NCBI RefSeq assembly: GCF_014205215.1
Contig: NZ_JACHNC010000001.1
Coordinates: 1,369,001 to 1,433,000 of the forward strand
DNA: 64,000 nucleotides
Direction: 5' to 3'
DNA from: Actinoplanes lobatus
Lineage (GTDB): Bacteria; Actinomycetota; Actinomycetes; Mycobacteriales; Micromonosporaceae
The notes beneath the pieces were generated by a model. The model was not told where the DNA came from. It was given only the letters and a program-made list of their open reading frames with translations, and searched no databases. Numbering within the stretch: position 1 is the stretch's first letter; each line of letters opens with the position of its first letter. Made by a program: the position numbers and the translations under genes. Shown here in pieces: positions 51,108-60,383 of this stretch.

Positions 51108-51145
51108 TTGACGAGTCCGCCGAGAAAGTTACACTCCAAGTGTAA
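51108..51145 (+). promoter_or_regulatory. Promoter and palindromic operator of the liv-catabolic operon
   Basis: TTGACG (51108-51113) and TACACT (51130-51135) are 16 bp apart. The -10 lies within the perfect palindrome TTACACT-CCA-AGTGTAA (51129-51145), so a bound repressor would block the promoter. The TetR protein at the end of the operon is the natural candidate. Confidence 0.75.
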
Positions 51146-51198
51146 ATAGTTGATGCTCCATCTCCACCTAGGATCTCCACCGGTCCGGCGAGGCGGCC

Positions 51199-51906
51199 AT
51201 GTCAACAGATCCCCCGCTCAAGGAGCTCGCGCTCCACAACATCACGGTCCGCTTCGGCGGCTTGACCGCACTCGATGACGTCTCCCTGCGCGTGGCGCCG
51301 GGGCGGATCGTGGGCGTCATCGGGCCGAACGGCGCGGGCAAGACCACCCTTTTCAATGTCATCTGCGGCTTCGTGAACCCGACATCCGGGTCACTCACGC
51401 TGGACGGGCAGCCCTGGCGGCCCCGGCCGCACCATTTGAACCGTCTCGGTATCGCACGGACCCTCCAGGGTGTCGGCCAGTTCGCCGGCATGACCGTCCT
51501 GGAGAACGTGATGGTCGGTGCGCGCAACCGGCATGCCGAGCGGGAGGCGCTCACCGCCCTGGAGCGGTGTGGCGTCGCCCGGTACGCGGGCGCCCATCCC
51601 GGCGCGCTGCCGTACGCGATTCGTAAACGCATCGAGCTGGCACGGGCGCTGGTCGCCAAGCCACGCATCCTGATGCTCGACGAGCCGGCCGGCGGGCTGG
51701 ACCCGGATGAGATCCGCTGGCTCGGCACCCTGATCAAAGAGGTCGGCACCACCGTCCTGCTGGTCGAACACCACATGGACCTGGTGATGTCGGTCTGCGA
51801 CGAGATCCTGGTGCTCGATTTCGGTAGGTCGATCGCGCTCGGCACCCCGGGCGAGATCAGCGAGAACCCACGGGTGACCGAGGCCTATCTCGGCGCTCCG
51901 GCCTGA
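51199..51906 (+). CDS. livG: Liv-type ABC importer ATPase 1
   Basis: A 235-residue ATPase with Walker A GPNGAGKTT and Walker B LMLDEPAGGLD. The signature motif is degenerate: where LivG has LSYGQQR this protein has LPYAIRKRIELARAL. It is the first gene of the operon. The substrate need not be an amino acid; such importers also carry amides, urea and aromatic or acyl acids. Confidence 0.9.
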   Translation: MSTDPPLKELALHNITVRFGGLTALDDVSLRVAPGRIVGVIGPNGAGKTTLFNVICGFVNPTSGSLTLDGQPWRPRPHHLNRLGIARTLQGVGQFAGMTVLENVMVGARNRHAEREALTALERCGVARYAGAHPGALPYAIRKRIELARALVAKPRILMLDEPAGGLDPDEIRWLGTLIKEVGTTVLLVEHHMDLVMSVCDEILVLDFGRSIALGTPGEISENPRVTEAYLGAPA

Positions 51907-52060
51907 CCCGGGGCGCCGTTTCCCTTCCGGGCTGACAACTCGGCACGCCTTTTTCATAACACGGGGCCGGACCGGCCTCTCATTTCGCATATCCGGAAAG
52001 CCAGGCATGACCCGGCTCTCCTCGGCATACCCACCGAGCGGCCCCGAAGGAGGAGCGCCG

Positions 52061-56838: not shown

Positions 56839-57614
56839 AACGGGTCGTCGTCACCGGCGCCGGCGGCGGGATCGGGGCGGCGCTGGCTCGCCGGTTCGCC
56901 GCCGACGGCGCCCGGGTCGTGGTCAACGACCTGAACGGCGACGCCGCCCGCTCGGTGGCCGGGGAGATCGGCGGCATCGCGGTGCCCGGCGACGCGGCGA
57001 GCGAGGCCGACGTCCAGCACCTGATCGACACCGCCTGGACCGAGCTGGGCGGCATCGACCTGTTCTGCTCCAACGCCGGGGTGCTGTCGTCCGGTGACGA
57101 GACGACGCCGGACGCGCAGTGGCAGCGCGACTTCGGGGTCAACGTGATGTCGCACGTCTACGTGAGCCGGGCGCTGCTGCCGCGCTGGCTGGACAGCGGC
57201 GAGCCGAAGCGACTGTTGATCACGGTGAGCGCGGCCGGGCTGCTGACCCTGCTGGGGAGCGCCACCTACTCGGTGACGAAGCACGCGGCGCTGGCCTACG
57301 CCGAGTGGCTGCGAGCGACGTACGCCCATCGGGGTCTGATCGTGCAGGCGCTCTGCCCGCAGGGCGTGCGCACCGACATGCTGGCCCGCGGCAACGACAG
57401 CGGCAGCGGATCCGCGTCGCTGCTCGCCGAGGGGGCGCTGGCCCCGGAGACGGTCGCCGACCTGGTCGCCGATTCGCTGGACGGCGAGGGTTTCCTGATC
57501 CTCCCGCACGCGGAAGTCGAGGGCTACTACCGCTTGCGTGCGAGCGATCCGGACCGTTGGCTGGGTGGCATGAACAAACTTCAGCGCGGTTTCGAGCGGC
57601 AGGCGTCCTCATGA
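56835..57614 (+). CDS. SDR oxidoreductase 2
   Basis: A 259-residue SDR with TGAGGGIG, SNAG, catalytic Ser in VSAAG and YSVTK. GTG start overlaps the upstream stop (GTGA), and its own stop overlaps the kinase start (ATGA). Possibly oxidises a hydroxyacyl group after the dehydrogenase step. Confidence 0.9.
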   Translation: MKRVVVTGAGGGIGAALARRFAADGARVVVNDLNGDAARSVAGEIGGIAVPGDAASEADVQHLIDTAWTELGGIDLFCSNAGVLSSGDETTPDAQWQRDFGVNVMSHVYVSRALLPRWLDSGEPKRLLITVSAAGLLTLLGSATYSVTKHAALAYAEWLRATYAHRGLIVQALCPQGVRTDMLARGNDSGSGSASLLAEGALAPETVADLVADSLDGEGFLILPHAEVEGYYRLRASDPDRWLGGMNKLQRGFERQASS

Positions 57615-58588
57615 AGGGCCTCGACCTGGAAAAACTCCAGGCCTATCTGGACAGCCCGCCGCTTTCCGGGACGATGTTCGCGGGTGGCAGGTCGAACCTG
57701 ACGTACGCGGTCACCGACGGCGTCAACCGGTGGGTGCTGCGCCGCCCGCCGCTGGGGCACGTGCTGCCGACCGCCCATGACATGGCGCGCGAGCACAAGG
57801 TTCTCGACGCCCTCTCCAAGGCCGGTTTCCCGGTGCCGAAGCCGGTGCTGCTCTGCACCGACACCGAGGTGATCGGGGCGCCGTTCTACCTCATGGAGCA
57901 CGTCGACGGCACCATCCACCGGGACCCCGCCGGCCTCTCCCCCACCGAGTTCCGGGAGCTGACGTTCACGCTCGTGGACACCCTCGCCGACCTGCACGCA
58001 CTGGACCCGCAGGCGATCGGGCTCGGTGACTTCGGCAAGCCGGAGGGCTTCAACGCCCGGCAGGTGCGCCGCTGGAAGCAGCAGCTCGACGCGTCCCGCA
58101 GCCGGGAGCTCTCCGGCATCGACGAGCTGCACGCCCGCCTCGCCACCGACATCCCGGACGGCGCCGGCGCCGTGGTGCACGGCGACTTCCGCCTCGACAA
58201 CGTGCTGGTCAGCGACAAGCTGACGGTGAACGCGGTGCTGGACTGGGAGATGTCCACACTGGGCGACCCGCTCAGCGACCTGGCGCTGATGCTGATCTAC
58301 GCCGGGCGCCCGATGCTGGAGCGCGACGGTGTGCCGGTGGCCCCGATCGACGTCCCGGGCCATCCCACCCTCGACGAGATCTCCGCCCGGTACGCCGAAC
58401 GGAGCAAGCGGGACGTCAGCGACCTGCACTGGTACGTGGGCTTCGCCGCCTTCAAGCTCGCCGTCATCCTCGAGGGCGTGCACTACCGCTACACCAAGGG
58501 TCAGACGGTCGGCCCCGGCTTCGACACCGTCGGGGCGATGGTTCCCGCCCTGGTCGAGCAGGGCCACCGAGCGCTGGAAGGAAACTGA
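57611..58588 (+). CDS. Acyl-CoA dehydrogenase-associated kinase (ACAD10/11- or LvaA-like)
   Basis: A 325-residue APH-fold kinase with catalytic loop [10 protein letters not shown] near 193 and the metal-binding [14 protein letters not shown] near 215. Relatives are the N-terminal kinase of mammalian ACAD10/11 and LvaA of Pseudomonas, which phosphorylate the 4-hydroxyl of 4-hydroxyacyl-CoA so that a partner can remove it. The next gene is exactly such a partner. Proof of substrate is lacking. Confidence 0.85.
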
Positions 58589-59787
58589 TGGACTTCGAGT
58601 ACGACGCGAAGACCGAGGACTACCGCAAGAGACTGCTCGCCTTCATGGACGAGCACGTCTACCCCGCCGAGTCCTCGTTCCACACCGACGGCTGGGAGCC
58701 GCCCGCGATCCTGGCGAGCCTGAAGGAGGCCGCCAAGGAGGCCGGGCTGTGGAATCTCTTCCTTCCCGGTGAGCACGGCGCCGGCCTGACGAACCTCCAG
58801 TACGCGCCGCTCGCCGAGATCACCGGCCGCAGCCCGGCGGTGGCGCCGGCGGCCCTCAACTGCGCCGCCCCGGACACCGGCAACATGGAGGTGCTCGCCG
58901 AGTTCGGCACTCCGGAGCAGCAGGAACGCTGGCTCAAGCCGCTGCTGGCCGGGGAGATCCGGTCCGCCTTCGCGATGACCGAGCCGCAGGTCGCCTCGTC
59001 CGATGCCACCAACATCGGGACCCGGATCGAGCGGGACGGCGACGACTACGTCATCAACGGGCGCAAGTTCTACATCACCGGCGCGATGAACCCGAACTGC
59101 AAGGTCTTCATCGTGATGGGCAAGACCGATCCGGACGCCGCCCGGCACGTGCAGCAGAGCCAGATCCTGGTGCCCCGGGACACGCCCGGCCTGACCGTCA
59201 AGCGCGGCATGACGGTCATGGGCTACACCGACGGCGACCACGGCGGTCACGCCGAGCTGATCTTCGAGAACGTACGGGTGCCGGCCACCAACCTGATCGG
59301 CGTCGAGGGCGGCGGCTTCGCCATCTCCCAGGCCCGGCTCGGGCCCGGCCGGATCCACCACTGCATGCGGCTGATCGGCATGGCCGAGCGGGCGCTGGAA
59401 CTGATGTGCACCCGGGCGCTGGCCCGCACCACCTTCGGCAAGACCCTCGCCGAGCAGGGCGTCATCCAGGACTGGATCGCCGAGTCGCGGGTCCGTGTCG
59501 AGCAGGCCCGCCTGCTGGTGCTCAAGGCCGCTTGGCTGATGGACACGGTCGGCAACAAGGGCGCGCACACCGAGATCCAGGCCATCAAGATCGTGGTGCC
59601 GTCCGCCGTGGAGTGGATCCTCGACAAGGCGATCCAGACGCACGGCGCGGCCGGGCTCAGCCAGGACACCCCGCTCGCCGGGCTGTGGGCGAGCGCCCGC
59701 ATGCTGCGCCTGGCCGACGGCCCGGACGAGGTGCACAAGCGTTCCCTGGCCCACCGGGAGCTGAAGCGTTACCGGAGCGGTTCGTGA
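58588..59787 (+). CDS. Acyl-CoA dehydrogenase (ACAD10/11- or LvaC-like)
   Basis: A 399-residue flavoprotein with [16 protein letters not shown], the FAD block TGAMNPNC and the C-terminal ARTTFGKTL / QTHGAAGLS pattern of the ACAD10/11-like subgroup. In such pairs it completes conversion of phosphorylated 4-hydroxyacyl-CoA to an enoyl-CoA. It starts on the last base of the kinase stop (TGATG). Confidence 0.9.
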
Positions 59788-60383
59788 CCACACCGCCCAC
59801 CCGCGTCGACGGTCGCACCGCACGGTCCGAACGGACCCGCAACGCGATCGTCGACGCGCACCTCCGGCTGATCGGTGAGGGGGACATGCGCCCCACCGCC
59901 GACCGGGTGGCCAAGCTGGCCGGGGTGTCGCTACGCGCCCTGTGGAGCCACTTCGCCGACATGGAGGCGCTGATGGCCGCCAGTGGTCAGCGTGTCCTGG
60001 AGCAGCGCGACGCGGCGTACCGGCCGATTCCGGCGGATCTTCCGCTGGCCGAGCGGATCGAGGCGTTCAGCCACCAGCGGGCCCGCCTGCTGGAGGAGAT
60101 CGGGCCCGCCGCGCGGGCTTCCGCGCTCAAGGAGCCGTTCTCGGCCGGATTGCAGCGCTATCGCAAGTTGCACACCGCACGGGTACGGGACGAGCTGACC
60201 ACCACGTTCGCCCACGAGATCGGCAGCGACGAGGACCTGCTCAACGCTCTCACCGCGGTCAGCCTCTGGCCGACGTGGGCCTCGTGGCGCGACGGCATGG
60301 AGCTGTCGGTCGAGTCGGCCCGGTCCGCCCTGGCCCGCACGGTGGCGGCACTGATCAACCCGGCTTCGGCAGCCCGCACCTGA
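59784..60383 (+). CDS. TetR-family regulator of the liv-catabolic operon
   Basis: A 199-residue TetR protein with a helix-turn-helix near 30-60 ([21 protein letters not shown]). The GTG overlaps the acyl-CoA dehydrogenase stop (GTGA), so it is the last member of the ten-gene unit. It probably represses the operon at the palindrome in the promoter and is released by the substrate or its CoA ester. Confidence 0.88.

Follow-up and report, generated by a model that had tools for sequence, protein, structure and literature searches.

A conserved ten-gene actinomycete operon joining a Liv-type importer to a predicted 4-hydroxyacyl-CoA kinase/eliminase pair, with a probable role in hydroxy-acid uptake and β-oxidation

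The stretch of DNA analyzed here (the window) comprises 64,000 nucleotides of the Actinoplanes lobatus contig NZ_JACHNC010000001.1 (positions 1,369,001 to 1,433,000), from a 10.4-Mb, Actinoplanes-like genome. Between positions 51199 and 60383 of its plus strand, ten co-directional open reading frames (ORFs) were found to form one unit, as judged from the ORF list and the Pfam profiles. This unit combines a Liv-type ATP-binding cassette (ABC) importer, two short-chain dehydrogenases (SDRs), a kinase, an acyl-CoA dehydrogenase (ACAD) and a TetR-family regulator, and is preceded by a promoter that carries an operator-like palindrome. The features are the following:

51108–51135, plus strand: sigma70-like promoter, TTGACG-16-TACACT, with 9 of 12 consensus matches
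51129–51145, no strand assigned: operator-like perfect palindrome, TTACACT-CCA-AGTGTAA, overlapping the -10 hexamer
51199–51906, plus strand: livG-type ABC ATPase (PF00005 and PF12399)
52099–52818, plus strand: livF-type ABC ATPase (PF00005)
52821–53699, plus strand: livH-type permease (PF02653)
about 53749–54783, plus strand: livM-type permease (PF02653, gene call and ORF), start codon uncertain, longest ORF from 53539
54780–56045, plus strand: substrate-binding lipoprotein of the importer (PF13458; Cys19)
56092–56838, plus strand: SDR1, a classical short-chain dehydrogenase (PF13561; YxxxK by eye; NF005559)
56835–57614, plus strand: SDR2, a second classical SDR (PF00106; YxxxK by eye; match to 2et6)
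57611–58588, plus strand: APH-fold kinase, predicted 4-hydroxyacyl-CoA kinase of the LvaA/ACAD10/11 type (match to the mouse ACAD11 kinase domain; residues)
58588–59787, plus strand: atypical acyl-CoA dehydrogenase, predicted 4-phosphoacyl-CoA eliminase of the LvaC/ACAD10/11 type (match to ACAD11; residues)
59784–60383, plus strand: TetR-family regulator (PF00440, 24.5 bits against a cut-off of 24)

The genes overlap by 1–4 bases at five junctions (livM/binding protein, SDR1/SDR2, SDR2/kinase, kinase/ACAD and ACAD/TetR), the kinase and ACAD genes sharing a single base, and the remaining gaps measure about 50 bases at most, except for 192 bases downstream of livG. An earlier interpretation made from the letters alone (the sequence-only reading) had described a ten-gene unit with this layout; all of its ORFs and junctions were found, and the Pfam families agreed with the product assigned to each gene. 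The same reading had called the unit self-contained, which is too strong a term because none of the ten genes encodes a ligase, a hydratase or a thiolase. Its remark that the unit holds no acyl-CoA ligase was right for the window, but an AMP-binding ligase gene lies about 5.1 kb past the TetR gene, just outside the window. An acyl-CoA ligase gene adjoins the ACAD gene in some relatives.

Against the mouse ACAD11 kinase domain, the kinase scored 9e-55, and its closest named relative among the best 80 of 324 was from A. flavus (96%). It also matched 9o56, a chain labelled aminoglycoside phosphotransferase, at 3.6e-66; labels of this type, on 9o56 and on 3dxp, are names only. In the fold comparison, 9o56 was not among the 50 rows listed, so this comparison was of no help in naming it. 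Characterised antibiotic phosphotransferases reached 1.7e-5 at best (a macrolide kinase), and a role in aminoglycoside resistance was rejected on the difference between this value and that obtained with ACAD11. The dehydrogenase, the single copy of its type in the genome, matched human ACAD11 (2.5e-129) and an unnamed relative, 4hr3 (4.5e-127), whereas the best match outside this group was 1.8e-45. The gap in score, from 1e-127 to 1e-45, together with the active-site residues, led to the rejection of an ordinary fatty-acid ACAD. D211 of the kinase is the aspartate of a DWE motif, which we take to be one of the key residues of such kinases.

Further residues are named for mouse ACAD11 in the available part of PMC12440821: the catalytic aspartate D220, N225 and R176 in the kinase, and R626, H634, R637 and D753 in the ACAD domain, the latter set being conserved among ACAD10/11 and LvaC. 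The residues compared were identical in the window proteins, where kinase D192, N197 and R150 correspond to the first three (R86 of that paper was left out, as it could not be placed) and dehydrogenase R250, H258, R261 and D377 to the other four. Hence, the ACAD residues given as common to LvaC and ACAD10/11 are also present here, with D377 as counterpart of the catalytic aspartate and R250, H258 and R261 as counterparts of the phosphate contacts. Each half of this ACAD signature was found in 84 of 85 homologues of the fetched loci, the exception being a called ORF that deviates from the family in that region, and the HHCMR and DGPDE motifs were found in none of the 33 members of two other ACAD families from the same loci.

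Because of these sequence matches and active-site residues, the kinase and the dehydrogenase are assigned to the ACAD10/11-LvaA/LvaC type. The grouping put forward by the sequence-only reading thus held in the profile comparison, in which the two proteins did not fall into families of other substrates. According to the accessible parts of the literature, including PMC12440821, such pairs phosphorylate the 4-hydroxyl group of a 4-hydroxyacyl-CoA and then eliminate the phosphate, leaving a 2-enoyl-CoA; the window pair very probably carries out the same two reactions. Mammalian ACAD10 and ACAD11 contain the same kinase and ACAD domain types, whereas here they are two separate proteins, encoded in an operon alongside an importer.

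Pairs of this kind were also observed on plasmids, in other company (loci are designated by L numbers). A linear plasmid of Streptomyces cathayae (L136:7917-10160) carries a kinase-ACAD pair, 58% and 70% identical to that of the window, between IS3-family transposase genes. On a Rhodococcus opacus plasmid (L137:7096-10005), genes for a HAD phosphatase, a FabG-like SDR and a MaoC protein lie directly 5' of such a kinase, a layout that recalls the HAD-kinase-ACAD arrangement of mammalian ACAD10. The kinase and ACAD of a Sphingobium herbicidovorans plasmid (L134:3920-11654) are accompanied by a 3-hydroxyacyl-CoA dehydrogenase, an alpha/beta hydrolase, a ferredoxin and a P450, which suggests yet another substrate class.

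The conservation of the gene order was analyzed in the 80 best of the 324 kinase relatives, kept as loci. All ten genes were present on the same strand, in the same order and within 11 kb in 38 of the 80 (Actinoplanes, close genera and Virgisporangium), and hence this order exceeds chance. The importer was incomplete in two loci (L032, at a contig end, and L067) and absent from 40, including L055 on a truncated contig; six Nocardiopsis loci showed SDR1-SDR2-kinase-ACAD without it. The ACAD gene was on the same strand as the kinase gene in 79 of the 80. In a sample of 150 genomes of the family, the importer, defined by a binding protein of at least 47% identity, was found in 85, and at least 40 of these, from at least 9 of 25 genera, carried the kinase within 15 kb of it. 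Even in the most diverged linked genera (g12 and g27, about 50–55% identity) the kinase was 118–252 bases from the binding-protein match. Outside the family, a kinase was found near the importer in 6 of 17 fetched loci (L151, L152, L153, L155, L156 and L158). The association with the importer noticed in the sequence-only reading is therefore real and, since its linkage to the kinase is conserved, the importer is taken as part of the pathway unit.

The interval 51108–60383 considered here starts at the -35 hexamer of the promoter. No such promoter match (0.0) was expected in shuffles of the 181-base stretch, and the promoter block was near-invariant in an alignment of the window with seven Actinoplanes loci. 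The palindrome, whose 7-base arms are missed by an inverted-repeat search that needs arms of at least 8, is the single site in the 10.4-Mb genome at up to two mismatches, and it has none. A reversed control pattern gave two matches on each strand, and weak sites consequently mean little. The palindrome was found 5' of livG in 59 of 67 loci. The Actinoplanes group contributed 35 of these, from 39 livG-bearing loci, and 33 of the 35 copies were perfect; other genera contributed 24, from 28 loci, all of them imperfect and usually of the form RTACACTnnnAGTGTAA. The eight remaining loci, with no copy before livG, were L066-L069, L126, L129, L130 and L142. The last gene of the operon, encoding the TetR regulator, also follows the importer in several kinase-less loci, and this regulator is the probable owner of the putative operator at 51129-51145.

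An imperfect operator copy (TTACACCGCTAGTTTAA) was also observed in seven loci (L046:17211, L047:16708, L053:16692, L054:16303, L056:17343, L058:16547 and L086:15139), where it is flanked by a second TetR gene and an ACAD-like gene. It may represent a second target, or else a sister operator.

With two ATPases, two BPD_transp_2 permeases and one Peripla_BP_6 binding protein, the importer is a complete Liv-type set by its Pfam families, the same as in HAAT importers. It differs from these in its gene partners, which are hydroxy-acid and β-oxidation genes, and in its scores, as all five proteins were far under the curated NCBIfam cut-offs for branched-chain amino-acid transport (in bits, LivG 214 against 362, LivF 231 against 441, LivH 65 against 379, LivM 112 against 366 and the binding protein 20 against 477). 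Cys19 of the binding protein was invariant in 20 aligned homologues, and the N-terminal LLATAGC resembles a lipobox by eye. The AlphaFold model of this protein (predicted confidence, pLDDT, 83) resembled proteins whose titles or bound ligands point to fatty acids, aromatic acids or amino acids. Valine or leucine is present in some solved binding proteins that are equally similar in fold, and the predicted fold is thus compatible with amino acids as ligands. For 4n03, the literature search gave no paper. Two genomes of 1.3 and 2.2 Mb (L163 and L164) hold such an importer as well, with a binding protein about 38–42% identical and no kinase, ACAD or esterase match within the fetched stretch.

SDR1 scored over the cut-off of NF005559, a broad NCBIfam model, and is a candidate 3-hydroxyacyl-CoA dehydrogenase or 4-oxoacyl-CoA reductase. 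The best solved relative of SDR2 was 2et6, labelled (3R)-hydroxyacyl-CoA dehydrogenase (5e-29), which makes SDR2 a candidate hydroxyacyl-CoA dehydrogenase.

The gene families around these clusters were called with a home-made gene caller. In other genera, a thiolase, a MaoC hydratase, AMP-forming ligases and a second ACAD pair are added around the importer and the kinase, as are an enzyme of the zinc-binding-dehydrogenase family and, together, a zinc alcohol dehydrogenase and an aldehyde dehydrogenase. The last two are also found just downstream of the operon, in a set starting at 62228-63316 of the window (minus strand) and running on into L135, where a zinc alcohol dehydrogenase, an aldehyde dehydrogenase, a TetR protein and a long-chain-type acyl-CoA ligase are encoded just past window position 64000 (L135:1-4038). 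Parts of this set adjoin the importer in several other genera.

Relatives also add an esterase of family PF12740, with a GHSMGG motif and a signal-peptide-like N-terminus, which is apparently secreted. By label, its relatives in the PDB are a triacylglycerol lipase (1.3e-127), a poly(ethylene terephthalate) (PET) hydrolase (3.9e-119) and a cutinase (7e-111); its score against NCBIfam NF051441 was 478 bits, under the cut-off of 520. The likeness to bacterial cutinases, PET hydrolases and lipases concerns only this upstream enzyme of the relatives, as none is present in the window cluster and the four esterase homologues listed for the window's own genome all lie outside the operon cluster. The esterase was within 16 kb of an importer gene in at least 16 of 91 importer loci, from at least 9 genera (the G085 link being at 15.0 kb), against about 0.4 expected under random placement; because this Poisson value ignores common descent, the 9 genera are a fairer count than the 16 links. 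In 8 of 9 inspected loci the esterase gene was co-directional with the next cluster gene, 38–382 bases away, and in the ninth, L112, a short called ORF of the opposite strand lies between them. The full series of esterase, ACAD pair, importer, thiolase (reverse), SDR1, SDR2, kinase, ACAD and TetR was found in L121, L122, L138 and L139. Outside the family, an esterase homologue (L160:12405, 63% identical) was observed about 2 kb from such an importer, in a stretch with no kinase match.

The operator core recurs in these extended clusters. CACTnnnAGTG was found 37 times in the 588,674 bases of 30 loci (L129 and L144 partly overlapping), against 3.8 expected. Apart from those before livG, sites were located between the thiolase and SDR genes (L117, L121, L122, L125, L139 and L142), before the TetR gene (L141 and L142) and at the start of the ACAD pair (L118). 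Additional ones in L117, L125 and L141 lie near the ACAD pair as judged by position, with no automatic assignment, and none was assigned to the esterase gene in the 30 loci.

Taken together, we consider it reasonably probable that the unit is a TetR-controlled operon for the uptake and β-oxidation of hydroxylated carboxylic acids, among which fatty acids hydroxylated in mid-chain are the most likely substrates. In this scheme, the hydroxylated fatty acids would be released outside the cell, imported by the Liv-type importer with its lipoprotein and converted to CoA thioesters by an acyl-CoA ligase, for which the gene about 5 kb past the operon is a candidate, while the SDRs would act as hydroxyacyl- or oxoacyl-CoA dehydrogenases. 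β-Oxidation would shorten a chain hydroxylated at an even carbon until the hydroxyl reached C4 and the normal cycle stalled; by this reaction scheme, acids hydroxylated at even positions would thus give rise to 4-hydroxyacyl-CoA. As suggested by family and active-site residues, the kinase would then phosphorylate the 4-hydroxyl and the atypical dehydrogenase would eliminate the phosphate, yielding an ordinary 2-enoyl-CoA. At the palindrome covering the -10 hexamer, the TetR protein would keep the operon repressed as long as no ligand was present. Longer hydroxy fatty acids are favoured because the neighbours in relatives include the cutinase/lipase-family esterase, the thiolase, MaoC, the ligase and the alcohol and aldehyde dehydrogenases. 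Two observations speak as clearly against the importer as a member of the pathway: 45 of the 85 importer genomes showed no kinase within 15 kb among the matches listed, and several genera retain the importer and TetR without the kinase.

The sequence-only reading had proposed instead short 4-hydroxy or 4-oxo acids as substrates (levulinate, 4-hydroxyvalerate or opened gamma-lactones), with an SDR acting as LvaD and the pair as in the lva operon of P. putida and P. citronellolis (LvaA kinase, LvaC ACAD, LvaD SDR and LvaE ligase). The kinase, ACAD and SDR unit is indeed common to both systems, and the kinase/ACAD type is the same. A Caballeronia plasmid cluster, whose histidine phosphatase, kinase, SDR and ACAD make up the gene set described for P. 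citronellolis, stood in for the LvaA/LvaC/LvaD sequences; identity to this stand-in was 36% for the kinase, 58% for the ACAD, 37% for SDR1 and 23% for SDR2. Nevertheless, the ActP-like symporter (LvaF/LvaG), the sigma54 regulator LvaR and the ligase LvaE of lva are not among the ten genes; the transporter is a Liv-type ABC importer, as unlike that of lva as the sequence-only reading had stated, and the regulator is a TetR protein. A profile search of the window's genome gave no match to PF19802, presumably the family of LvaB, the small kinase partner in lva. Moreover, short acids would not need the thiolase, MaoC, several ACADs and esterase of the relatives, and this substrate class appears less likely.

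A bulky isoprenoid or steroid-like acid whose hydroxylated side chain is degraded, the kinase acting like 25-hydroxysteroid kinase, is less likely still as a substrate: that enzyme did match the window kinase (6.7e-11), but far more weakly than the ACAD11 kinase did, the partner ACAD has the phosphate-contact residues, and the window lacks the ACAD pair. An ordinary branched-chain amino-acid importer that happens to lie beside enzymes for endogenous 4-hydroxyacyl-CoAs, for example from lipid peroxidation, would fit the Liv-type architecture, the equally similar binding proteins with valine or leucine and the many genera whose importer orthologues have no kinase nearby, but is very improbable given the low scores of all five proteins in the curated Liv models and the union of importer and catabolic genes in one operon, with the same operator type and long-range synteny.

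Returning to hydroxylated fatty acids, plant polyesters (cutin and suberin) or similar esters are favoured as their source because the cluster of the relatives holds the esterase, the thiolase, the MaoC hydratase and extra ACADs. Both cutin and suberin contain abundant hydroxy acids, with mid-chain as well as terminal hydroxyls. Tentatively, and with clearly less confidence than for the operon itself, the window may contain a reduced form of an actinomycete locus for the utilization of plant polyesters. The full locus would run from a secreted cutinase, via a Liv-type importer dedicated to hydroxy fatty acids, a ligase and β-oxidation enzymes, to an ACAD10/11-type pair that removes the mid-chain hydroxyl at C4, largely under one TetR-type regulator and the CACTnnnAGTG operator. 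The excerpts available offer a precedent in Aspergillus nidulans, with ester hydrolysis, omega-hydroxy acid oxidation and β-oxidation (PMC4117967, cited in PMC5158114).

The 4-hydroxyacyl-CoA kinase/eliminase pathway has been described in pseudomonads that degrade levulinate and, in publications from 2024 and 2025, in mammals. Hence, the chemistry is known, and what appears to be new is its combination with a Liv-type importer, with a TetR regulator and its conserved palindrome and, in the relatives, with an esterase of the cutinase/lipase family; no report of this combination was found in the accessible text of the open-licence PMC literature. Nor did the same text yield a bacterial cutin or suberin catabolic operon or a cutinase-linked importer, which is weak evidence of absence, and the available parts of two suberin proteome papers (PMC5158114 and PMC4098958) contained no match to the window importer or kinase. 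Bacterial suberin catabolism was called "not well documented" in an excerpt of the former, from 2016.

The conserved gene order and the recurring operator tie the pathway to a dedicated importer across many actinomycete genera. If the proposed function is correct, it would explain how actinomycetes could use mid-chain-hydroxylated fatty acids, give a role to kinases recorded as "phosphotransferase family protein" or "aminoglycoside phosphotransferase", suggest non-amino-acid ligands for a family of Liv-type importers, and make bacterial cutin/suberin catabolism testable through one operon and one operator. Should the polyester source also hold, a genetic route would connect a bacterial cutinase with the full breakdown of hydroxy monomers, and the 4-hydroxyacyl-CoA kinase pair would have a natural function in addition to that in levulinate degradation.

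Finally, the genes flanking the operon were considered. The major facilitator superfamily and 2-oxoglutarate (2OG) oxygenase genes at 48796-51084 were rejected as members of the unit, their spacing to livG being highly variable among Actinoplanes loci. The 2OG-Fe(II) oxygenase (PF13532, window 50446-51084), which we take to be of the AlkB type, lies 5' of the operon, at variable distance, in many loci of the Actinoplanes group. Directly after the operon, on the opposite strand, a DUF6886 protein is encoded at 60396-60956 of the window, and about half of the loci in the Actinoplanes group contain a match to it.

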